A model generated the notes under the pieces. It made no database searches and had not been told where the DNA came from. It saw only the letters and a program-made list of their open reading frames with translations. 64,000 nt of DNA from Solibacillus sp. FSL R7-0668 (lineage in GTDB: Bacteria > Bacillota > Bacilli > Bacillales_A > Planococcaceae): NCBI RefSeq assembly GCF_038006205.1, contig NZ_JBBOUU010000001.1:560001-624000 (forward strand). The letters are read 5' to 3'. Shown here piece after piece: positions 44,429 to 54,611 of this stretch (positions are counted from its first letter, which is position 1; every line of letters begins with the position of its first letter). The translations under genes were made by a program, and so were the position numbers.

Positions 44429-44506
44429 AGGTCATAACAGTCAGCTTCTCGTTATAAAAAAGGTATGTTAAAATAAGCTTAACAGATTATGAATGAGGTG
44501 GTGAGG

Positions 44507-45124
44507 TTGTCGGAAAATATACTACTGTATCATTTAACACATATTAATAATTTACAGTCGATTCTCCATCAAGGTAGTTTATGGTCCCATGCACTTGTTA
44601 GAAAACATGCTATTTCGTATAAAGATGTTGCCAATCAAGATGTACAAACACGTAGGGAACGTACAAAAATACCGATTGGTGTTGCTGGCAGCTTACATGA
44701 GTATGTGCCATTCTATTTTGCACCGCGTTCGCCCATGTTATATGTCTTATGCATGCAACAAATTCCGCAAAATGACATTGTATATTTTATGACGAATAAA
44801 GAAATGATTCAATAACATTGTTCTTCATTCGTTTTTACAGATGCCCATGCGATTCGAAGACTTACGAATTTTTATACACAATTATCAGATTTGAATAAAA
44901 TTGATTGGGAACTGATGAAAGCTTCACAATGGGCAGACACAGATGATGACCCGAATAGAAAAGCAAGACGTCAGGCAGAATTTTTAGTATACAATGAAAT
45001 TCCTTTGTCAGCTTGTCTAGGATTTGCTGTGTATAGCAATTCAGCGAAGCGTAAGGTAGAGGAAATGTTACAAGAGGCAGATATATCCTTACCAGTAGCT
45101 GTTCGAAAGTCATTTTACTTCTAA
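44507..45124 (+). pseudogene. darT: DarT-type DNA ADP-ribosyltransferase toxin with one in-frame stop
   Basis: The frame encodes a full-length DarT (about 205 residues) except for TAA at 44813-44815, codon 103. Before it: YHLTHINNLQSILHQGSLW, RRERTKIP and EYVPFYFAPRSPMLY, the NAD-binding N-terminal motifs of DarT (formerly DUF4433). After it, in the same frame: FVFTDAHAIRR, IDWELM and RKARRQAEFLVYNEIPLSA, with the catalytic-type Glu at residue ~158. DarT transfers ADP-ribose to thymidine in single-stranded DNA. The half product lacks the Glu, so the toxin should be dead unless the stop is read through or is a sequence error. The TTG start at 44507 has GAGGTG 7 nt upstream. The gene directly precedes darG. 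Confidence 0.82.
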
Positions 45125-45138
45125 GGGAGGTGGATGAA

Positions 45139-46173
45139 ATGATTCAATGGGTAACAGGTAATTTACTTGAAGATTCAGCGGAAGCATATGTGAATACAGT
45201 AAATACAATTGGTGTCATGGGCAAAGGCATTGCACTTCAATTTAAGCAAGCTTTTCCGGATGTCTTTAAGCAGTATGAAAAAGATTGTAAAAAAGGGCTT
45301 GTACGAGTTGGAGAAATGCATGTGGTAGAAGTAGTAGGGTTAGCTGCACCTAAGTATGTCATTAACTTTCCTACAAAGGAACATTGGCGCAACCCATCAA
45401 AATTAAGTTTTGTAGAGGAAGGCTTAAAAGATTTAGTAAGAGTTGTTCAGCAATTAAATATTAAGTCGATCGCGCTGCCTCCACTTGGATGTGGAAATGG
45501 AGGACTGGATTGGCATGTAGTACGCCCAATAATTTTGGATGCTTTTCAATCATTAGACGTAGAGGTTCATTTATATGAACCAACTGGTGCCCCTCCATTG
45601 GATCAAATGGTTATTCGAACAAAGAAACCGAAAATGACATTGGGAAGAGCGCTGTTATTAGCAGCTATGACTCGGTATGCTGGACCTGGTTATCGGATGT
45701 CATTATTAGAGGTTCAAAAGATTGCCTATTTTTTGCATGAAGTCGGAGCATTACCAAAACTTCAATTTGAAAAAAATCGCTTTGGCCCTTACGCAGAAGG
45801 TTTGAATCATGTGCTTCAGGCAATGGAAGGGCATTATATTCGAGGTTATGGTGATCGAACTCAAGGAGCGGAAATTTACCTATTAAATGGTGCTGCAGAA
45901 GAAGCGGAGCAATTTATAGCAAACAACGATAAAGCGGTGAATGATTTACAGCAGGTAGCTGATTTAATGTATGGCTTTGAAACGCCGTATGATTTAGAAT
46001 TGTTGTCGACAGTTGGGTGGATTCTGAAAGAAAATCCAACTAGAGCACATGATAAATACTACGTGATACAGTCTGTACGAAACTGGAATGAAAGAAAGAA
46101 ACGAATTTTTCCAATCGATCACATTGAAAAAGTGTGGGATTATTTAAAGAATGAAGTACAGTTTGTATCGTAA
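45139..46173 (+). CDS. darG: DarG-type antitoxin (macro domain ADP-ribosyl-DNA hydrolase)
   Basis: 344 residues. Residues ~1-150 are a macro domain (VTGNLLEDSAEAYVNTVNTI, GVMGKGIALQFKQAFP, and FPTKEHWRNPSKLS with the catalytic-type Lys of DarG), which removes ADP-ribose from DNA. Residues ~175-344 are the DarG C-terminal domain that binds and neutralises DarT, with LEVQKIAYFLHEVGALPKL, NRFGPYAEGLNHVL and MEGHYIRGYGDR. ATG 45139 has GGGAGGTGG upstream; GTG 45130 overlaps it. It begins 14 bp after darT. The gene is intact, unlike the toxin. Confidence 0.9.
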   Translation: MIQWVTGNLLEDSAEAYVNTVNTIGVMGKGIALQFKQAFPDVFKQYEKDCKKGLVRVGEMHVVEVVGLAAPKYVINFPTKEHWRNPSKLSFVEEGLKDLVRVVQQLNIKSIALPPLGCGNGGLDWHVVRPIILDAFQSLDVEVHLYEPTGAPPLDQMVIRTKKPKMTLGRALLLAAMTRYAGPGYRMSLLEVQKIAYFLHEVGALPKLQFEKNRFGPYAEGLNHVLQAMEGHYIRGYGDRTQGAEIYLLNGAAEEAEQFIANNDKAVNDLQQVADLMYGFETPYDLELLSTVGWILKENPTRAHDKYYVIQSVRNWNERKKRIFPIDHIEKVWDYLKNEVQFVS

Positions 46174-46473: not shown

Positions 46474-46502
46474 TTGCATTCCCAAAAATAGTTAGATAGA
46501 AT
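46474..46502 (+). promoter_or_regulatory. Promoter of the fatty-acid oxidation operon
   Basis: TTGCAT (46474-46479), 17 bp, TAGAAT (46497-46502), 60 nt before the start codon. Confidence 0.55.
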
Positions 46503-46561
46503 AAAAAATAATTCAGAATTAACAGAAAATAGATTAAGTGCATAAAGGAGTGGAAATAGGG

Positions 46562-47710
46562 ATGAAAGCTAATTTTTTAACAAATGAACATGAGATGTTT
46601 CGGGAGGCGCTGCAGAAAATGCTTCGAAAAGAGGCGTACCCGTATTACGAAAAATGGGAAGAGGAGCGCAATATTCCGCGCGATTTTTGGCTGAAGCTAG
46701 GGGAGAATGGTTTTTTACTTCCGTGGGTAGAGGAGCAATATGGTGGCTTAGGGTTGGATTTCTCGTACTCGATGATTTTGACGGAGGAATTGGAAAGGGT
46801 CGGGGTTGGTTTAGCTAGTGGCATCTGCTTGCATTCGGATATTGTAAGCCCTTACATAGAGGCGTATGGGACAGCGCAGCAAAAGCAAAAATGGCTACCA
46901 AAAAGTGTGACGGGTGAATATATTTCGGCTATTGCGATGACAGAGCCTGGTGCAGGATCGGACTTGGCAGGCATTAAGACGACTGCGCGCAAAGAGGGGG
47001 ATCATTATATTTTAAATGGGGAAAAAACCTTTATTACAAATGGCAATCATGCAGATTATGTCATTGTTGTTTGTAAAACTGATCCCCATGCACAGCCCGC
47101 GTATCGTGGGATTAGCTTACTCATAGTTGAAAATGGCATGCCGGGATTCACGCGGGGGAAAAAGCTAAATAAAATCGGCATGCATTCGGGGGATACGGCA
47201 GAGCTAATTTTCGAGGATGTCAAAGTACCTGCCGAAAACCTGCTTGGTGAAGAAGGAAAAGGCTTTTATTACTTAATGGAAAAGCTGCAGCAAGAGCGAC
47301 TTGTCGTAGCACTTCAAGTTCAAATAGAGGCAGAGGTCATGCTGCAATTAACGATTGATTATGTGAAGGAACGGAAGGCTTTTGGAAGTCGAATTGCGGA
47401 TTTCCAAAATACTCAGTTTAAGCTAGCAGAGATGGCCACAGAAATCGATATGGGAAGAAACTATGTCAATACATTGACTGAAAAACATATGCACGGTGAA
47501 GATATTGTCAAAGAGGTTTCGATGGCAAAGTGGTGGATTAGTGAAATGGCCAAGCGCGTCGCAGCAGAATGCCTTCAGCTTCACGGGGGCTATGGCTATA
47601 TGGAGGAATACGAAATTGCCCGAAGATATCGCGACATTTCGGTGACATCCATTTATGCAGGGACAACGGAAATTATGAAAAGCATTATCGCGAAAAAAAT
47701 ACTGTCGTAG
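46562..47710 (+). CDS. Acyl-CoA dehydrogenase
   Basis: FAD enzyme catalysing the first step of fatty acid (or branched acyl-CoA) beta-oxidation. 382 residues. Signatures: the flavin region AIAMTEPGAGSDLAGIKTTA, FITNGNHADY, KAFGSRIADFQNTQFKLAEMA, QLHGGYGYMEEYEIARRYRD, and the C-terminal YAGTTEIMKSIIAKKI with the catalytic Glu in TTE. ATG 46562 is used; an in-frame GTG at 46538 is further from any good site. First gene of a four-gene cluster with a TetR regulator, an acyl-CoA ligase and a 3-hydroxyacyl-CoA dehydrogenase. The chain-length preference cannot be told from the sequence alone. Confidence 0.93.
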   Translation: MKANFLTNEHEMFREALQKMLRKEAYPYYEKWEEERNIPRDFWLKLGENGFLLPWVEEQYGGLGLDFSYSMILTEELERVGVGLASGICLHSDIVSPYIEAYGTAQQKQKWLPKSVTGEYISAIAMTEPGAGSDLAGIKTTARKEGDHYILNGEKTFITNGNHADYVIVVCKTDPHAQPAYRGISLLIVENGMPGFTRGKKLNKIGMHSGDTAELIFEDVKVPAENLLGEEGKGFYYLMEKLQQERLVVALQVQIEAEVMLQLTIDYVKERKAFGSRIADFQNTQFKLAEMATEIDMGRNYVNTLTEKHMHGEDIVKEVSMAKWWISEMAKRVAAECLQLHGGYGYMEEYEIARRYRDISVTSIYAGTTEIMKSIIAKKILS

Positions 47711-47719
47711 GAGGTCTAT

Positions 47720-48304
47720 ATGAAACTCTCTGAGAAGAAAATCCTAAAGAAGAAAGAACAAATTTTATTATCCGCCATTACGATTGTTAATCGGAGAGGC
47801 TATGACGGTGCAACAATGGAAGAGATTGCCGCAGAACTAATGATGACCAAGGGCTCTTTGTATTATTACTTTAATAATAAAAGCGATTTATTGTACCAAT
47901 GTCATAAGCTTGTGCTTGCTCAGGCAACAGAAGAGCTGGAGGAGGATTTACGGGGGGAGGGAACGGCGGAAGAAATCATGCGAAAAATGATTGGTACACA
48001 TATCAATTATGCGGTAGATGAAAAGGAAACGTTTAACTTGATCATTGAACCGAAGCAAATGTTTAACCCTGAACAAATCGAACCCGTGCTGAAATTACGA
48101 AAGCACTACGCTGGTTTATTTGATCAAGCGATTGAAAAAGGCGTCATATCCGGTGAATTTCATGTAAAAGAGCCGATTATTGTTCGAATGATGATACTCG
48201 GTGCGATGAACTGGATTCAACAATGGTATAACCCAGATGGAAGAATGGCGAAGGACGAGCTCAAGCAGCATTTTGCTGACGCCATTATGAAATTACTCAA
48301 ATAA
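47720..48304 (+). CDS. TetR-family transcriptional regulator
   Basis: 194 residues. The N-terminal HTH is typical of TetR: ATMEEIAAELMMTKGSLYYYFNNK (residues ~31-54). The C-terminal ligand and dimer region contains a Trp-Ile-Gln-Gln-Trp motif (NWIQQWYNPDGRM), seen in FadR-type regulators of fatty acid degradation. It lies 9 bp after the dehydrogenase and 13 bp before the ligase, so it is likely the acyl-CoA-sensing repressor of its own operon. The AGGAGG site overlaps the intergenic gap. Confidence 0.88.
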   Translation: MKLSEKKILKKKEQILLSAITIVNRRGYDGATMEEIAAELMMTKGSLYYYFNNKSDLLYQCHKLVLAQATEELEEDLRGEGTAEEIMRKMIGTHINYAVDEKETFNLIIEPKQMFNPEQIEPVLKLRKHYAGLFDQAIEKGVISGEFHVKEPIIVRMMILGAMNWIQQWYNPDGRMAKDELKQHFADAIMKLLK

Positions 48305-48317
48305 AGGGGAGATTAAT

Positions 48318-49820
48318 ATGTTACTACCGGAATTATTGGGAAATTACGCTAAGAGTCAACCGAACAAAGTGTTTACATCCTATAACGGACGTGAATGGAC
48401 CTATGAAGCGTTTTACGAAAAGGCCAAACGCGTTGCGGCATATTTTCAAGCGAATGGCTATAAAAAGGGCGATATCGTTGCATTGTATTCGTTAAATACC
48501 GACATCTTTTTAGTGTGCTATTTCGGCTTACAATTAGGCGGTTTTTCTGTTATGCCGGTTAATACGAAGCTTGCGGGCCCAGAGGTAGCATACATTTTTA
48601 ATCATTCAGAAGCGAAGTCCCTTATCTATGATGTCCGTCTTGAAGACATCATTAACGAAACGGAGCATGTTTTCCGTGAAAAGCTAGCAATCGGTGGAGA
48701 AGATCAGCTTGGCAAAATTCTTGAAGACGAAACCCTCCACTTTACACCGGTTTCATTAGACGAACAGGATACATCCGTCATTATGTACACATCTGGAACA
48801 ACCGGCAAGCCTAAAGGGGTGATGCTGACACATCGAAATATTTTAGCGGCCGGTGAAATATGGTCGGAGGTTATGGATATTACGGGAAATGACCGTATGC
48901 TTGTATCCACGCCATTATTCCATTGTGCAGCAGCGCATGTATTTGTCGTCCCTGTCACGTATAAAGGGGGCACGATCATTATTGAAGAGGCGTTTACTAC
49001 AGACGGTACATTAGCACTTTTGCAAAATACACAGCCGACGATGTTTTTTGGTGTGCCAGCGATGTATACGATTTTGTTGAACTTGCCACATATTAAGGAA
49101 ATTGAGCTACCAACATTGCGCTTGTTTGGCTACGGGGCAGCACCAATGCCTTACGAAATTTTGAAGAAATTAAAAGAAACCTTCCCAACGATTAAAGTAC
49201 AAAACTTATACGGCCAAACGGAAAATGCACCTGGCGCATCTTCATTAAAAGATCATCATGCACTGAGCAAAATCGGCTCAGTTGGTGAACCACTTCCACA
49301 AACAGAAGTACGAGTAGTCGATGAATATGGAAATTCACTACCTACTGGGCAAGTGGGCGAAATCGTTGTCAAAGGTGCTCAAGTGATGAAGGGCTATTTG
49401 AAAAATGAAGAAGAAACAGCCCGCGCCATTAAAGACGGTTGGCTCTACTCAGGTGATTTAGGGCGATTTGATGAGGATGGGCTGCTGTATATTGTCGACC
49501 GCAAAAAAGACATGCTCATCCGAGGCGGAGAAAATGTCTATCCGGTTGAAGTGGAAGAAGTATTATATCAAATCCCTGAATTACTAGAAGCTGCAGTTGT
49601 TGGTGTGCCGCATCCAGTGTATGGAGAAGTGCCAAAAGCATATGTCGTTTTGAAGGAAGGAAAAGCATTGACGGCCGCTCAAATCATGGACTATTGCGCA
49701 ACACAGCTCGCGAAATATAAGGTACCAATGGAAGTCGAATTCCTAAATGAATTACCGCGAAACGCTTCCGGTAAAGTGCTGAAGCATACATTGGGACCGA
49801 AAGAGAATCTGAGCGTATGA
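48318..49820 (+). CDS. Acyl-CoA synthetase (AMP-forming)
   Basis: 500-residue ANL-superfamily enzyme that activates a fatty or other carboxylic acid with ATP and CoA. P-loop-like MYTSGTTGKPKGVMLTH (residues ~156-172), YGQTENAPGA, GWLYSGDLGRFDEDGLLYIVDR, KKDMLIRGGENVYPVEVEE, and the C-terminal catalytic Lys region LPRNASGKVLKH. All motifs are intact. It is probably cotranscribed with the dehydrogenase and regulator. The substrate is most likely a medium- or long-chain fatty acid, by context. Confidence 0.92.
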   Translation: MLLPELLGNYAKSQPNKVFTSYNGREWTYEAFYEKAKRVAAYFQANGYKKGDIVALYSLNTDIFLVCYFGLQLGGFSVMPVNTKLAGPEVAYIFNHSEAKSLIYDVRLEDIINETEHVFREKLAIGGEDQLGKILEDETLHFTPVSLDEQDTSVIMYTSGTTGKPKGVMLTHRNILAAGEIWSEVMDITGNDRMLVSTPLFHCAAAHVFVVPVTYKGGTIIIEEAFTTDGTLALLQNTQPTMFFGVPAMYTILLNLPHIKEIELPTLRLFGYGAAPMPYEILKKLKETFPTIKVQNLYGQTENAPGASSLKDHHALSKIGSVGEPLPQTEVRVVDEYGNSLPTGQVGEIVVKGAQVMKGYLKNEEETARAIKDGWLYSGDLGRFDEDGLLYIVDRKKDMLIRGGENVYPVEVEEVLYQIPELLEAAVVGVPHPVYGEVPKAYVVLKEGKALTAAQIMDYCATQLAKYKVPMEVEFLNELPRNASGKVLKHTLGPKENLSV

Positions 49821-49944
49821 GTCAAGTGTAGTAAGGAACGAATAATATTTATAGCGATACGCCGCAATGATTCCCTTTTACAGAAGGAATCCACACAAAC
49901 TGAACAAGGAATGGATGCATTTTTACGAAAGCAGGTGAGCGAAA

Positions 49945-50784
49945 TTGAAGATAGGTGTGATCGGTTCAGGCATTATGGGAAATGGCATTGCCCAAACATT
50001 TGCTATGGCAGGATATCAAGTCATACTGAGTGATCTTAATGAGAAGGCATTAGTAAGCGCACGTGAAGTGATTGCCGTCAATATTGAACGAGTGTTGAAA
50101 AAACAGGAGAGTACGCAGGAAGGAGATGAAATTCTTCAACGAATCCAGTTTACTACGGGTAAGGATGTCTTAGCAGATGCGGATTTGATTGTCGAAGCCA
50201 TTATTGAAAATATGGAAATGAAAAAGGCGATTTTCAAAGAGCTAGACGGAATTTGTGAGCCAAAGACGATTTTTGCCTCGAATACGTCTAGTTACTCGAT
50301 TACGGAAATCGCAGCTGCCACTTCACGCCCGGATCGTGTATGCGGGATGCATTTCTTCAACCCAGTACCAGTTATGAAGCTTATTGAGGTTATTCGAGGG
50401 GCGGCAACTTCGGAAGAGACGGTCGCATTTGTCCAACAGCTAGCAACGCGCATTGGGAAGGAAAGCATTACGGTGGCAGACGCGCCATTATTTGTAGTCA
50501 ATCGTATTCTTATCCCCATGATTAGTGAGGCGATTTTTGTTTTAGATGAAGGAATCGCCACTGCGGAGGATATCGACAAAGGGATGGTTTTAGGCACAAA
50601 TCAGCCGATTGGTCCATTAAAGCTTGCGGATATGATTGGCTTAGATACCCTATTGTATGTACAGGAAACGCTGCTACATGAAACGGGTGATTCGAAATAT
50701 CGCATTCCCCAATCACTGAAAAAGCTAGTCCGTGCAGGGCATTATGGCCGGAAGACAGGACAAGGGTTTTATCGATATACTTGA
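49945..50784 (+). CDS. 3-hydroxybutyryl-CoA (3-hydroxyacyl-CoA) dehydrogenase
   Basis: 279-residue NAD(P)-dependent oxidoreductase for 3-hydroxyacyl-CoA. N-terminal Rossmann motif GVIGSGIMGNGIAQTFAMAG; then SNTSSYSITEIA, HFFNPVPVMKLIEVIRG with the catalytic-type His, VADAPLFVVNRIL and the C-terminal GQGFYRY. It starts at TTG (49945) with AGGTGA 6 nt upstream. It lies 124 bp after the acyl-CoA ligase; the gap has a small hairpin (GATTCC/GGAATC). It resembles MmgB/Hbd. Confidence 0.92.
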   Translation: MKIGVIGSGIMGNGIAQTFAMAGYQVILSDLNEKALVSAREVIAVNIERVLKKQESTQEGDEILQRIQFTTGKDVLADADLIVEAIIENMEMKKAIFKELDGICEPKTIFASNTSSYSITEIAAATSRPDRVCGMHFFNPVPVMKLIEVIRGAATSEETVAFVQQLATRIGKESITVADAPLFVVNRILIPMISEAIFVLDEGIATAEDIDKGMVLGTNQPIGPLKLADMIGLDTLLYVQETLLHETGDSKYRIPQSLKKLVRAGHYGRKTGQGFYRYT

Positions 50785-50823
50785 TGGGGGAGCCTGGTGC
50801 TGCTGGGGCCGAGGTGAGGATTC

Positions 50824-50932
50824 GTGCGATATTTCGGAGTTTATGTGCGGTTTTATGAGAAATGCGTGCGATATTTTCAAATTACGTGCGATTTTCGACC
50901 ATTTGTGTGCGATATTTTGAAAATACGTGCGA
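50824..50932. repeat. Phased tract, core GTGCGA, six units every 20-21 bp
   Basis: GTGCGA (once GTGCGG) starts at 50824, 50845, 50866, 50886, 50907 and 50927: spacings 21, 21, 20, 21, 20. It uses the same core as the tract at 25311. Confidence 0.8.
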
Positions 50933-51108
50933 ATTTCCAGTTACACCCAGTTTGGAGGCGAGGAAATGCGCGGTATTTTAATTTTATTTGCAGGTTAGCG
51001 CGGGATATTTGTGATTCCCCAAAATCACTATTACTTTATCGACCATTTGAATCCAATCGTATGTAACTTACATTCAGCCCCCTTTCGTATAAAAATAAAA
51101 GTACTTTT

Positions 51109-51462
51109 TTGGCTGCTTCTCAAACTCTATTTTTATTAGAGAGAGGATCCTATTTTTATGCAAATCAACATCCCATAGATACCCAATGTCAATCACGTTC
51201 GAGTGATGTTGGTCCGTTCATTGTGCCCAATATTTTGAGGGGTCGTCAAGTGCTGATGCATCTTGGATTGTTGACAGCACAAATCGATTTAGAAAAGCCC
51301 GTACGTGAAGGGCTAAAACCAAATCAGATTAATGATGATACGAGTGATCGTCACCGTCATTGTTTATATGAAGCCGTGTCTTCGTTTTTGGTATGGACAT
51401 ACCAAGTGGAAAAGATACCACTTCGCTTTTTCCACGGTGATAAGACGAGTAAATCGGTGTAA
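51109..51462 (+). CDS. Doubtful open reading frame
   Basis: A frame of 117 codons that I do not recognise. It has no clear ribosome site before ATG-like starts, no signal peptide and no known motif; composition (many His, Arg, Ser) is unlike its neighbours. It may be a decayed gene fragment or chance. Recorded because it is the only sizable frame in this gap. Confidence 0.15.
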   Translation: MAASQTLFLLERGSYFYANQHPIDTQCQSRSSDVGPFIVPNILRGRQVLMHLGLLTAQIDLEKPVREGLKPNQINDDTSDRHRHCLYEAVSSFLVWTYQVEKIPLRFFHGDKTSKSV

Positions 51463-51550
51463 GGCGCCAATGATACCCCTGCACGCCGATGTTCATGACA
51501 GCTATTCTTAATAGAGATGGCTCTTAAGTCTCATGCAGTGGTAAAATACC

Positions 51551-51590
51551 AAAACAAACAAGGATAACGTTATTAAGTTATCCTTGTTTG
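51551..51590 (-). terminator. Terminator of the graspetide-like cluster
   Basis: CAAACAAGGATAAC (51555-51568) and GTTATCCTTGTTTG (51577-51590) pair perfectly over 14 bp. On the minus strand it is followed by TTTTGGTATTTT. It begins 8 nt past the precursor stop codon. Confidence 0.8.
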
Positions 51591-51597
51591 TTGAAAT

Positions 51598-51807
51598 CTA
51601 AGCAATATGCATACCTTCATTTGGTCTGTCACTATCAGAACGGCTATCTTTTTCTGCAGCATAAGTTGATTCACGTGAAGATGTAGATTTTCCAGATGCA
51701 TAAATATCCGTAGCATTAGGGTTATTAGGAGTCCAAGACCAATTGTTATCTAGCTTTTGCTTATCAGATGTTGGGACTTCTAAATAATTTAGTGCGAAAA
51801 CTTTCAT
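51598..51807 (-). CDS. Putative graspetide (omega-ester/amide RiPP) precursor peptide
   Basis: 69 residues, after an ATP-grasp maturase gene it overlaps by 4 bp (ATGA). GGAGGTG is 8 nt before the ATG, inside the maturase's last codons. N-terminal FALNYLE (residues 4-10) has the spacing F-x3-[FY]-L-E of the microviridin leader (FFARFLE), so it may be the enzyme-binding element. The C-terminal half has donors and acceptors for side-chain ester or amide bonds: KSTSSREST (40-48), then EKDSRSDSDRPNE (52-64). It lacks the TTxxxxEE-type repeats of plesiocin. No Cys, signal peptide or domain. The precursor role is inferred from context and composition. Confidence 0.65.
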   Translation of the reverse strand: MKVFALNYLEVPTSDKQKLDNNWSWTPNNPNATDIYASGKSTSSRESTYAAEKDSRSDSDRPNEGMHIA

Positions 51808-52784
51808 GTTCTATTCACCTCCTTTACATTGGTAATTAACCATTTAGAAATCTCTTTAGAAATTTCTAATCCAGTTAAGTCTTCAATCCATAACCACTGT
51901 CCGAAGCAATTTATTTCGAGAAAATACCACTCATTATTAGGTGTCACAATAAAATCTAACGCGCCATAATTTAAATCAAATATAGAAAGCAATTGATTAA
52001 CTTTATCCTTTATTTCCTTAGGTGGATTGATCGGAATATGAGGGGTATTTGGTATGTCGTATCTTCTCCAATCTACATTGGCTTTATTTGACTTTTGTGA
52101 ATCTATTTTGCATACAAAATGTTCGCAGCCCACAACCGTATATCTAACTTCAAAGCTCTTAGGTATGTATTTTTGAAGTACTATTGGATTTTCTCCGACA
52201 GTATTAAATTTTTCAATAATATCCATCGAATTAATAATATTAACGTACAACCCTTCGTAAATACCTTTATCGGATTGATAAAAATCTTGTGCCATCATTT
52301 TAAAAACTACTGTTTCATGTTTTTCAACAAAAGATAATAATTCATTTTTTTCGTTTGAAATTAATATTGGGGGAAGATTGAAACCAACATGCTCAGCAAT
52401 CTCCATTTGTAAGTATTTATTTTCCCCTTTATAGGCTTTATCGAGTTTATTGAGCCATTTCTTATTTTTTAAAGTAGAGTAAAAGCCATTTAACGTTTTA
52501 TTCCACTCGTTTTTCCATATTTGAAAACCTGTAGAATTGTCGTTTAGTTCTTCCAAAGTTAACTCAACAAACCCCCTTCTTGCCCAAACAACATCGATAT
52601 CATTTGACGTAATTAAGTGCGAATTTTGTTGTATATGCCAAACCCCATTTTTGAAAGAAATCTTTGAATTTTTTAACGCTGAAGTATCTAAGTTGAATCG
52701 GAAGTAGTCAATTGATGAATCTACTAAATTTTTAATTACTAGATCTGCATGTATATCATAAGAATCTGTCAAAATAAAAATCAT
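51804..52784 (-). CDS. MvdC/MvdD-type ATP-grasp peptide ligase
   Basis: 326-residue ATP-grasp enzyme of the family that makes macrocyclic esters or amides between Ser/Thr/Lys and Asp/Glu side chains of a precursor peptide. Motifs: N-terminal MvdD-like domain with FRFNLDTSAL, VVWARRGF (the [W]-x-RR signature), EIAEHVGFNLPPILISN, LQKYIPKSFEVRYTVVG, DWRRYDI, and the metal-binding YGALDFIVTPNNEWYFLEIN followed by GQWLWIEDLTGLEIS. AAGGTG lies about 6 nt before the ATG. The downstream peptide gene overlaps it, so translation is coupled. No transporter or protease gene is adjacent. Confidence 0.88.
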   Translation of the reverse strand: MIFILTDSYDIHADLVIKNLVDSSIDYFRFNLDTSALKNSKISFKNGVWHIQQNSHLITSNDIDVVWARRGFVELTLEELNDNSTGFQIWKNEWNKTLNGFYSTLKNKKWLNKLDKAYKGENKYLQMEIAEHVGFNLPPILISNEKNELLSFVEKHETVVFKMMAQDFYQSDKGIYEGLYVNIINSMDIIEKFNTVGENPIVLQKYIPKSFEVRYTVVGCEHFVCKIDSQKSNKANVDWRRYDIPNTPHIPINPPKEIKDKVNQLLSIFDLNYGALDFIVTPNNEWYFLEINCFGQWLWIEDLTGLEISKEISKWLITNVKEVNRT

Positions 52785-52810
52785 CTAATCACCTTATCCA
52801 TTTTTAATTA

Positions 52811-52840
52811 ATTATAGATAATAATGGATGTATATTTCAT
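52811..52840 (-). promoter_or_regulatory. Candidate promoter of the ATP-grasp cluster
   Basis: On the minus strand ATGAAA (52840-52835), 18 bp, TATAAT (52816-52811). The predicted leader is about 20 nt and carries the ribosome site. Confidence 0.45.
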
Positions 52841-53282
52841 CAACTAATTTAAAATGATTCCTTTGAATTGATTTAATGAAATTGGATGATATTTTTCCTC
52901 TTGATATTTTAATTATGTACTTAAATAGAAAGAAAAATGGCGGAAAAGTATTGAGGCTCATAGAAAAGTAACGATAATTTTGTAGTATAAAAATATTTAT
53001 ACTCTGAAATAGGAATATTACTTAAATGAATATGCTATAACTTATATGGCCCGCTCCTATATCACAATACAAATCCGCTAGAAAATCGAACATTTTAAGA
53101 AATTTACGTTTATATGTATGTCGGTTGTATTGTGTGGAAATATTTACAAAAAATTAAAAAAGATGTATTGTAATGTTATATAAATTGAATGCCCTAGCAA
53201 ATTACCTGACTTTTGGGGGGATTGTTTTATGCGATATTAGATTGTTAAATTCAATTTATTTAAAACTTAATGGGGTGAGAAA
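52841..53282. other. AT-rich region between divergent genes
   Basis: No gene is seen. A candidate promoter for the downstream CAP gene is TTTACA (53143-53148), 17 bp, TATTGT (53166-53171). Confidence 0.4.
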
Positions 53283-54611
53283 ATGAAGAAAATTTGGCTA
53301 TGTGTAGTATTTATTCTGAGCGCTGTTATGGTTGTAATTCCACATGCGAAGGCTGAAGAAGTACAAGAGGTTCAAAAATTTACAGATGTAAGTATACATA
53401 AAGAGTGGATAATTCCTGTTAAATCGAAAAAAGTAACGCTAAAGGATCTTGCAGTAGCATTAGTGGATAGTGAGGGCGAACAACAGGGAGTAATTGTAGA
53501 AAAAATTAAGAATGAGTTTATTATTAAGCCGAAGCAACCGTATAAATATGGCACGGAATATAGCTTACATGTGCAAGAATTAAATGTGAAAAACCCACTT
53601 TGGCTTCAAATTGATTTTACAACAGAGTACTTTAAGATAGAAAATCCAACTGCACTTGTACGTATCGGGGATATTAAAGAACAATATGAGCAGTTGAAGC
53701 CCGTTTATACAGGTAAAACTTATGTGAAGAAGCCCTCTTTGCAATCGCCGTATGATATGGGTGAATTGCAAAAAGGTGTGCTAACGGATGCATTAAACAC
53801 AACCAATTTAATGCGTTATATAGCGGGGTTACCGGCAAATATTCAATTAAATGATAACTATAATAAAGAAGCCCAAGCGGCAGCGCTTATTAGTGCTATA
53901 AATCCGAGTCTCTCACATTCTCCGAGTCAACCGTCAAATATGGAAAAGGATTTATATGATCTGGCCTATAAAGGTGCATCGAAGAGTAATTTATCAAAAG
54001 GACGTAATAGTATCGTCGACAGTATTATTTATGGTTATATGAATGATGGAAGTGCTTCAAATATTGGTCGAGTTGGTCATCGACTTTGGATTCTATCACC
54101 AAAATTAAAAGAGGTGGGCTTTGGTTTAGTAACTGGGTCAGAAGAGGACTGGCGTACAAATGGTTCAGCAATGAAAGTAATTCAGGATAATATGTATAAA
54201 AATAGCGATTTAGATTATGAGTACATTTCCTGGCCAGCTAAAACAGCTACACCTACAAATTATTTCGAAGCAATTTATCCATGGTCATTTTCATTAAATC
54301 CAGAACTGTATGATGTGAAAGTTGCAAAGGAAATTAACATTACAGTAACTCGATTAAAGGACAATAAAAAGTGGCATTTTAATCAAAGTAAAGCAGATGG
54401 CTACTTCAATATTAGTACGAGCAACTTTGGTTATTTACCATACACAATTATTTTCCGCCCAGAAAATGTAGGAGCGGAGGATTCTGAATCGAAATATATT
54501 GAATACGAGCATGGGGATCATTATAAAGTAGAAATTGCAAATGTTAAGCGGATAAACGGCGAGATTACAACAATAGAATTCGAAACAACATTCTTCAATT
54601 TAGAGCAATAA
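53283..54611 (+). CDS. Secreted CAP-domain protein
   Basis: 442 residues. Signal peptide MKKIWLCVVFILSAVMVVIP, cleaved near HAKA. Residues ~35-110 look like an Ig-like (Big/SbsA) beta domain (KPKQPYKYGTEYSLHV). Residues ~165-330 are a CAP (SCP/PR1) domain: TDALNTTNLMRYIAGLP, NYNKEAQAAALI, SLSHSPSQP, NIGRVGHRLWILSPK with His/Glu-type positions. The C-terminal ~110 residues are beta-rich and unrecognised. CAP proteins of Bacilli are secreted and of varied or unknown function. GGGGTGAG is 7 nt before the ATG. Single gene with its own terminator. Confidence 0.85.
   Translation: MKKIWLCVVFILSAVMVVIPHAKAEEVQEVQKFTDVSIHKEWIIPVKSKKVTLKDLAVALVDSEGEQQGVIVEKIKNEFIIKPKQPYKYGTEYSLHVQELNVKNPLWLQIDFTTEYFKIENPTALVRIGDIKEQYEQLKPVYTGKTYVKKPSLQSPYDMGELQKGVLTDALNTTNLMRYIAGLPANIQLNDNYNKEAQAAALISAINPSLSHSPSQPSNMEKDLYDLAYKGASKSNLSKGRNSIVDSIIYGYMNDGSASNIGRVGHRLWILSPKLKEVGFGLVTGSEEDWRTNGSAMKVIQDNMYKNSDLDYEYISWPAKTATPTNYFEAIYPWSFSLNPELYDVKVAKEINITVTRLKDNKKWHFNQSKADGYFNISTSNFGYLPYTIIFRPENVGAEDSESKYIEYEHGDHYKVEIANVKRINGEITTIEFETTFFNLEQ

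Follow-up and report, generated by a model that had tools for sequence, protein, structure and literature searches.

Within a 64,000-nt stretch of Solibacillus sp. FSL R7-0668 (contig NZ_JBBOUU010000001.1, positions 560,001 to 624,000; hereafter the window, to which positions without a locus prefix refer), we analyzed two adjacent genes on the minus strand that encode an ATP-grasp graspetide synthetase of the MvdC/MvdD type (the ligase) and its putative precursor peptide. The ligase (326 aa, positions 51804 to 52784) was assigned from its open reading frame (ORF), from profile and PDB searches and from a tree, and the precursor (69 aa, positions 51598 to 51807) was defined by its ORF and by alignment. 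The original prediction, made from the letters alone, had described a 69-residue peptide overlapping such a ligase by 4 bp, and the ORFs agree: the start of the precursor ORF overlaps the stop of the ligase ORF by 4 nt. By the sequence features tested, the strict PFFARFL leader excepted, the pair is a graspetide-type system. Beyond what had been predicted, we found that the core of the peptide is fixed across phyla, that the pair is mobile, that some relatives lie in defense surroundings and that an orphan copy of the precursor occurs in a phage record.

The predicted MvdC/MvdD character of the ligase was borne out by Pfam, NCBIfam and PDB matches. The protein scored above the family cut-off for the MvdD pre-ATP-grasp domain (Pfam PF21068, E 4e-8) and matched TIGR04187 (E 1e-55), TIGR04185/MvdC (2e-54), TIGR04184/MvdD (3e-49) and, down to 7e-38, the grasp-with-spasm models of NCBIfam. 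Because these NCBIfam scores are far below the curated cut-offs, the window ligase is a relative and not a member of the named groups. Its best solved relatives in the PDB were CdnC 7mgv (E 5e-42), 5ig8, AMdnB 7m4s, 5ig9 and 9bou. Residues K123, K162, E212, R214, D238-W-R-R241, D277, E290 and N292 are identical in all seven aligned homologues, and we take them to have catalytic roles in nucleotide or metal binding. In the tree, in which E. coli was represented by the viral contig L063 and for which alone the control ligases L064 and L065 were used, the seven group ligases formed one clade (support 100/99) that excluded the 20 control rows, which came from 13 other loci. The control ligases shared 26-37% BLAST identity with the window ligase, and profile scores in 395 genomes of the Mucilaginibacter phylum dropped from E 1e-144 within the group to 1e-61 outside it. 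The source genome contains one ligase match. At the sequence level, these enzymes form a ligase group of their own, which goes with a separate peptide core.

The leader pattern F-x3-[FY]-L-E occurred in one of the 242 window ORFs of 40-120 aa, namely the precursor ORF. Its leader recognition motif, KVFALNYLE (residues 2-10, positions 51778 to 51804, minus strand), aligned in the register of KPFF(A)xFLE (PMC7823629). Among the homologues, the N-terminus reads M-[KN]-V-F-x3-[YF]-L-E, in exact register with the microviridin-type leader KPFFANFLE of control locus L060, as the proposed microviridin-like leader had implied; F-x3-[FY]-L-E was present in all nine aligned rows, which represent eight sources with E. 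coli in two versions. Twenty-two columns are invariant across these rows, and W23-x-W25-x-P27 is conserved outside the core. The conserved core, IYASGKSTSSRESTYAAEKDSRSDSDRPNEG (residues 35-65, positions 51613 to 51705, minus strand, from the alignment), includes the invariant residues T42, S47, T48, Y49, E52, D54, D58, D60, R61, P62, E64 and G65, and the pattern T-x-[ST]-x2-STY-x2-E-x-D-x3-D-x-DRP[ND]EG was found in 8/8 peptides, that of E. coli included. TTxxxxEE, TTxxx[DE]E, TxKYPSD and TxTxxxExxDxD are known graspetide core motifs, and none of them occurred in the seven precursor peptides tested (the E. coli peptide was outside that run), in line with the predicted lack of TTxxxxEE, TTxxxDE and TxKYPSD. 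The precursor had no match in Pfam or NCBIfam (E<=1), PHROGs (E<=0.01) or the PDB (E<=10), and all nine rows gave a single chance match in NCBIfam, to thrS (E 0.14).

The hydroxyl positions T42, S/T44, S47 and T48 come before the invariant acids E52, D54, D58, D60 and E64, and the core has no invariant Lys. Of the predicted Ser/Thr/Lys block followed by an Asp/Glu block, the order of hydroxyls and acids stood, whereas Lys dropped out as a conserved part. Ser/Thr hydroxyls also lie ahead of the acids in known graspetides (PMC7823629). Because four constant hydroxyls precede five invariant acids without an invariant Lys, the product is likely a hairpin-like peptide linked by esters throughout. 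It would have at most four cross-links (and thus be lighter by at most 4 x 18 Da), the pairing of which is not deducible from the sequence.

Homologous pairs were collected by a scan of genome contigs with exact window-ligase patterns, which returned three loci: Cytobacillus praedii (L002), a Peptostreptococcaceae metagenome-assembled genome (L003, a 4.7-kb contig) and Mucilaginibacter sp. (L004). Further sources were a genome of the Mucilaginibacter-phylum sample (L057, genome G1138), the viral contigs L016 and L063, and E. coli genomes. A peptide directly follows the ligase in all seven independent loci with readable downstream DNA: the window, L002 and L003 (also Bacillota), L004, L016 and L057 (Bacteroidota or viral sources) and E. 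coli. L063 does not count as independent, since it shares 97-98% identity with the copies in E. coli, and its sequence stops where the ligase does. The search for homologous pairs and alignment of the peptides, which had been set as the test of the prediction, thus found the peptide conserved beside 7/7 ligases, always in the predicted order of ligase first and precursor last. A chance ORF was ruled out because the peptide follows every one of these ligases. The spacing between the two genes ranges from -4 to +12 nt, with the exception of the Mucilaginibacter locus L004 (-20 nt).

Over the 31 core residues, identity to the window peptide was 30/31 in Cytobacillus, 27/31 in E. coli and 21-22/31 in the other five, and the lowest value of all pairs was 19/31. 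For six peptides, the identity to the window was 68-97% in the core versus 22-33% in the linker (residues 11-34). Between the window and Cytobacillus, nonsynonymous divergence (dN) was 0.03 at a synonymous divergence (dS) of 1.0 in the core and 0.82 at a dS of 1.5 in the linker, with synonymous sites near saturation.

The ligase was found in 9 of 5,426 E. coli genomes and the precursor in the same nine, which include near copies (CB209 is present as two records, AH02, AH04 and CT01 are placed alike, and so are 33-6 and 58-3). Elsewhere, the ligase was detected in 1/101 sampled relatives (E<=1e-20; counts include the source genome) and, at 1e-60, in 1/398 genomes of the sample of the window's phylum, 1/251 of the Mucilaginibacter family and 1/193 of the Cytobacillus family. 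In the Mucilaginibacter phylum sample, 2/395 genomes carried a ligase at group level and ten more carried other ligases (E<=1e-30). The precursor (E<=1e-5) was found in 1/247 genomes of the order of G492 and in 1/289 genomes of the family that includes G1138. Relatives also gave weak precursor hits (E 0.008 to 1), which we regard as chance. The pair is rare, scattered and cross-phylum, and horizontal transfer is the likely cause of this distribution. Plasmids yielded ligase relatives at 26-32% identity only and no precursor match; annotated phages yielded ligase relatives at 25-31% in two records, no match to the L023 peptide and one chance match (E 1) to the E. coli peptide. A phage-borne reading of L016 was set aside: its record, which has no left flank, opens with the ATG of the ligase, and the pair is parted from phage genes by a serine recombinase and a fragment resembling comM. 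At L030:5933-7931 (IMG/VR 3300021398_000104), a Mg-chelatase fragment, presumably comM-like, lies beside a serine recombinase between the pair and phage genes, and the region looks like stacked integrations. Downstream of the pair at L016:1362-4016 are three tightly packed genes without a Pfam match, the middle one with faint similarity to a 2TM effector (E 1e-3).

The pair resembles the microviridin/chryseoviridin systems (MvdC/MvdD, MdnB/MdnC, CdnC) in ligase family, with CdnC as the best PDB match, in leader register and in the placement of hydroxyls before acids. Control locus L060 has the known microviridin layout, with KPFFANFLE, TMKYPSD and an upstream precursor. In contrast, the pair described here has one ligase instead of two, a downstream precursor, a leader motif that begins at residue 2 with V for P, and a core without KYPSD or a conserved Lys. 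With plesiocin, thuringinin and fuscimiditide, it shares a single ATP-grasp enzyme that is expected to make several esters, but it lacks TTxxxxEE and TTxxx[DE]E and has a single, longer core copy, a distinction drawn from the motifs known for those peptides. Graspetides have been sorted into 43 network groups (PMC13097080) and their precursors into 174 families (PMC8939145), and the pair may already be one of these. At L058:6153-6500 (genome G995), T-rich and DSDND segments recur in another candidate precursor with multiple cores, which lies just upstream of a different ATP-grasp ligase.

We are fairly confident that the window pair is a minimal, closed two-gene graspetide operon that works as follows. 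The synthetase would be translated first and the precursor next, from its own ribosome-binding site, for which the sequence AAAGGAGGTGA ahead of the precursor ATG, within the 3' end of the ligase gene (positions 51815 to 51825, minus strand), is a candidate. The enzyme would bind the very first residues of the precursor, where KVFxxx[YF]LE is a version of the PFFARFLE helix of microviridins, and, by homology, would phosphorylate the core Asp/Glu side chains and pass them to the Ser/Thr hydroxyls. Because no exporter or protease is common to the pairs, the product would probably stay and act in the cytoplasm, perhaps with its leader still attached; fully modified microviridin B inhibits elastase with the leader on (PMC11672978). 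Its target would be highly conserved, so that the core hardly varies between phyla. We guess that this target is most likely a protease, because the characterized graspetides are protease inhibitors.

Several observations weigh against this operon model or parts of it. In all eight sources, V stands in place of the P of the microviridin leader, whose helix motif is given as PFFARFL or Phhx1-2h. The acidic pair E191/D192, which in MdnC contacts a leader Arg (PMC7823629), is not conserved in the alignment of the group ligases; leader recognition, as predicted here, must differ in detail from that of the microviridin enzymes. L057 encodes two peptidases near the pair: approximately 0.8 kb downstream, on the opposite strand, one that resembles aminopeptidase C (PDB E 1e-88), and approximately 2.3 kb upstream a homologue of RseP/site-2 protease (E 2e-40). 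In E. coli of the L075 type, a 413-aa protein with a HEYIH motif and no PDB relative (L075:16052-17293) is encoded 0.9 kb downstream of the precursor. A missing processing enzyme is thus not the rule for every relative: the predicted lack of a transporter or protease held for the window, where none was seen by eye in the ORF list (within 5 kb, only a CAP-domain gene was Pfam-scanned), and no such gene is common to the pairs, but it failed for L057 with its two peptidase genes.

The neighborhoods of some relatives raise the question of a role in defense. In four of the five E. coli carriers opened (of nine), the gene order is ssrA, integrase, GajB and GajA on the opposite strand, ligase and precursor, followed by a small hydrophobic protein, two more genes, a relaxase, small genes and tyrosine recombinases. 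In the fifth, strain 33-6, the Gabija genes, ligase and precursor keep this order next to recombinase and prophage genes, and in L063 the Gabija proteins matched at E 2e-272 (GajA) and 2e-200 (GajB). The tmRNA site has been listed as defense hotspot #9 (PMC10121019). The relaxase of the E. coli element has matches in 124/5,426 genomes, 41 of them over >=80% of its length. In seven other relaxase carriers, the slot of the pair holds Kiwa-type or TIR/caspase genes (four), Hxs radical-SAM genes (two) or a methyltransferase/AAA set (one). The Kiwa-type slots contain KwaB with sce7725/sce7726/RES (UTME-9 and UTME-12, near copies) or KwaA/KwaB with a methylase and AAA/HNH genes, and the TIR/caspase slot, in one carrier, is accompanied by PP2C and kinases. 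As judged from gene content, the E. coli pair is cargo of a mobilizable element. The two Hxs slots (L083:3624-7021 and L085:3688-7085) hold HxsABCD, a His-Xaa-Ser radical-SAM peptide-maturation system and thus a second peptide-modifying system in the same E. coli slot.

In Cytobacillus, JetB (a partial ORF, E 1e-55), JetC and JetD lie upstream, HerA (4e-141) and an AAA protein stand directly before the pair, and the candidate defense gene PDC-M54A (3e-32), SngA (6e-21) and SngB (3e-165; Shango) follow it. The E. coli and Cytobacillus pairs share the genomic habitat of Gabija-, Kiwa- and Shango-carrying mobile islands, as known from genes alone. In Mucilaginibacter, the start of the ligase shares 4 nt with a gene that has a RelA/SpoT domain (Pfam 2e-19; PDC-S33 4e-18). 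At L057, an XRE-type regulator is encoded upstream of the pair. In the window, DarG lies 5.4 kb from the pair with a block of fatty-acid genes between them. Two adjacent ORFs downstream of the L003 pair (L003:3334-4261) appear by eye to be pieces of a caspase-like protein, and the second piece (L003:3941-4261) had no PDB relative (E<=0.01).

We compared these surroundings with those of 11 other graspetide ligase loci from one phylum, that of Mucilaginibacter; 7 of these loci hold tandem ligase pairs that group with L060, L060 itself included. ORFs within 5 kb were scanned with PADLOC at E<=1e-15, a limit picked after the target results were known. The controls (97 listed ORFs of >=100 aa) matched three PycC models with one member each, corresponding to 1 to 3 ORFs. 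Among the 51 ORFs of the seven target loci, counting the overlapping RelA gene, at least eight matched, at three loci (five in Cytobacillus, two in E. coli and one in Mucilaginibacter). By locus, 3/7 targets stand against 1 to 3 of 11 controls, which is not significant (one-sided Fisher approximately 0.14 at best, calculated by hand).

An orphan copy of the precursor was found in IMG/VR 3300045954_000073 (60,277 nt), where a gene for a 65-aa homologue overlaps the end of terL by 4 nt and precedes the portal gene. Besides matches to the terminase large subunit (E 9e-141) and portal (1e-9), this record has genes for the small terminase, head, tape measure and tail J. Its left end carries a bacterial gene for an amine oxidase, which makes a provirus probable. 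The orphan peptide has all the family residues, and no hairpin follows its gene. No ligase candidate was found in this record, which may be incomplete, and the host may encode one elsewhere. The orphan may serve as a decoy, may use a host ligase or may be a chance capture.

One alternative to the operon model as set out above is that the cross-linked peptide is, or is part of, an anti-phage defense or immune-modulating module that travels in defense islands, with a phage that carries the precursor alone using it as a competing substrate or counter-measure. The Gabija genes beside the E. coli pair at ssrA and the other defense genes in that slot, the Jet, HerA, AAA, PDC-M54A and Shango genes around the Cytobacillus pair, the PDC-S33 gene overlapping the Mucilaginibacter ligase, the rarity and scatter of the pair and the orphan beside terL all speak for it. 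However, this is guilt by association, and the locus comparison was not significant; nothing defense-like was seen within 5 kb of the window pair and none at L057, the L003 contig is too short and L016 has no left flank; the E. coli near copies amount to few independent events, and mobile elements could be carrying the pair simply as a passenger. We consider this alternative possible rather than probable. A defense function is a lead, drawn from location only. Its fuller form, which we put forward as speculative and on balance unlikely, is that a graspetide is used intracellularly in the conflict between bacteria and phages, as a two-gene mobile module found across phyla, in which a fixed peptide with several ester links, carried as defense-island cargo, would inhibit some conserved factor of host or phage, most likely a protease, and that at least one phage counters or exploits it by a bare precursor from its terminase-portal operon. 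Among the literature matches listed, no link between graspetides and anti-phage defense and no description of this core were found. Lanthipeptides near defense systems are treated in PMC12715929, and PMC11118758 predicts ribosomally synthesized and post-translationally modified peptides in prokaryote-phage settings, its graspetide passages drawing no link to defense. Graspetides have been studied as protease inhibitors and natural products. A 31-residue core that differs at four positions between E. coli and the window and lies beside Gabija or Shango in relatives would, if the idea is true, connect immunity within the cell with ester-cross-linked peptides. With the E. coli copy, both the chemistry and the phage question become open to experiment in a laboratory strain.

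A second alternative is a classical secreted product, that is, a protease inhibitor or antimicrobial that is exported and trimmed by mostly unlinked host machinery and has spread horizontally. Network groups 27, 28 and 35 consist of synthetase and precursor only (PMC13097080), and L057 has peptidase genes close by and, as seen by eye at a distance of 5 kb, a small peptide of the GG type and part of an ABC transporter. However, no exporter or peptidase is common to the pairs, and the core is nearly fixed across phyla, unlike diversifying bacteriocins. This explanation we also regard as possible but rather doubtful. The nearly unchanged core in a few unrelated bacteria, twice amid defense genes, suggests a job inside the cell and not an ordinary secreted antibiotic. 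It is very unlikely that the peptide is no substrate at all and that the ligase modifies another protein while the small protein acts as a regulator, adaptor or antitoxin: the ligase-free precursor in the phage record and conserved residues beyond the core, such as W23-x-W25-x-P27, would fit such a role, but the leader in microviridin register and the hydroxyl-then-acid core fit a substrate, and ligase and peptide co-occur in the same E. coli genomes.

The remaining features of the window locus concern its boundaries. An intrinsic terminator-like hairpin with a 16-bp stem and a T-rich tail (positions 51553 to 51592, minus strand, from sequence and folding) begins 5 nt past the precursor stop and is perfectly paired. 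Terminator-like sites in the region number 2 versus 1.2 expected, a count that alone means little; the hairpin would stand out by its perfect pairing and correct position. A hairpin was also seen soon after the precursor in L002, L003, L057 and both E. coli versions (folds judged by eye, no shuffle control), and no simple hairpin was seen there in the folds of L004 and L016. Upstream of the ligase, a weak promoter-like site (10/12 match, TATAAT) lies at positions 52811 to 52840 on the minus strand; the region contains 14 such sites versus 11.8 in shuffles, which is no clear excess. The G+C content is 27-33% at 51500-53000 and 40-45% at 46500 to 51500, and this drop is weak evidence of import because the right flank is also low (31-40%).

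The CAP-domain protein gene (53283-54611) adjoins the operon and had no match in 15 other genomes of the genus (E<=1e-30). Between a 3-hydroxyacyl-CoA dehydrogenase gene and the operon region, positions 50820-50936 hold imperfect tandem copies of a GTGCGATATTTT-like unit at a spacing of approximately 41 nt. The DarT/DarG-like pair occupies positions 44489-46173; DarG is complete (E 1e-129), and the DarT ORF, at just 108 aa, spans roughly half the family model, as if the toxin gene had been shortened.
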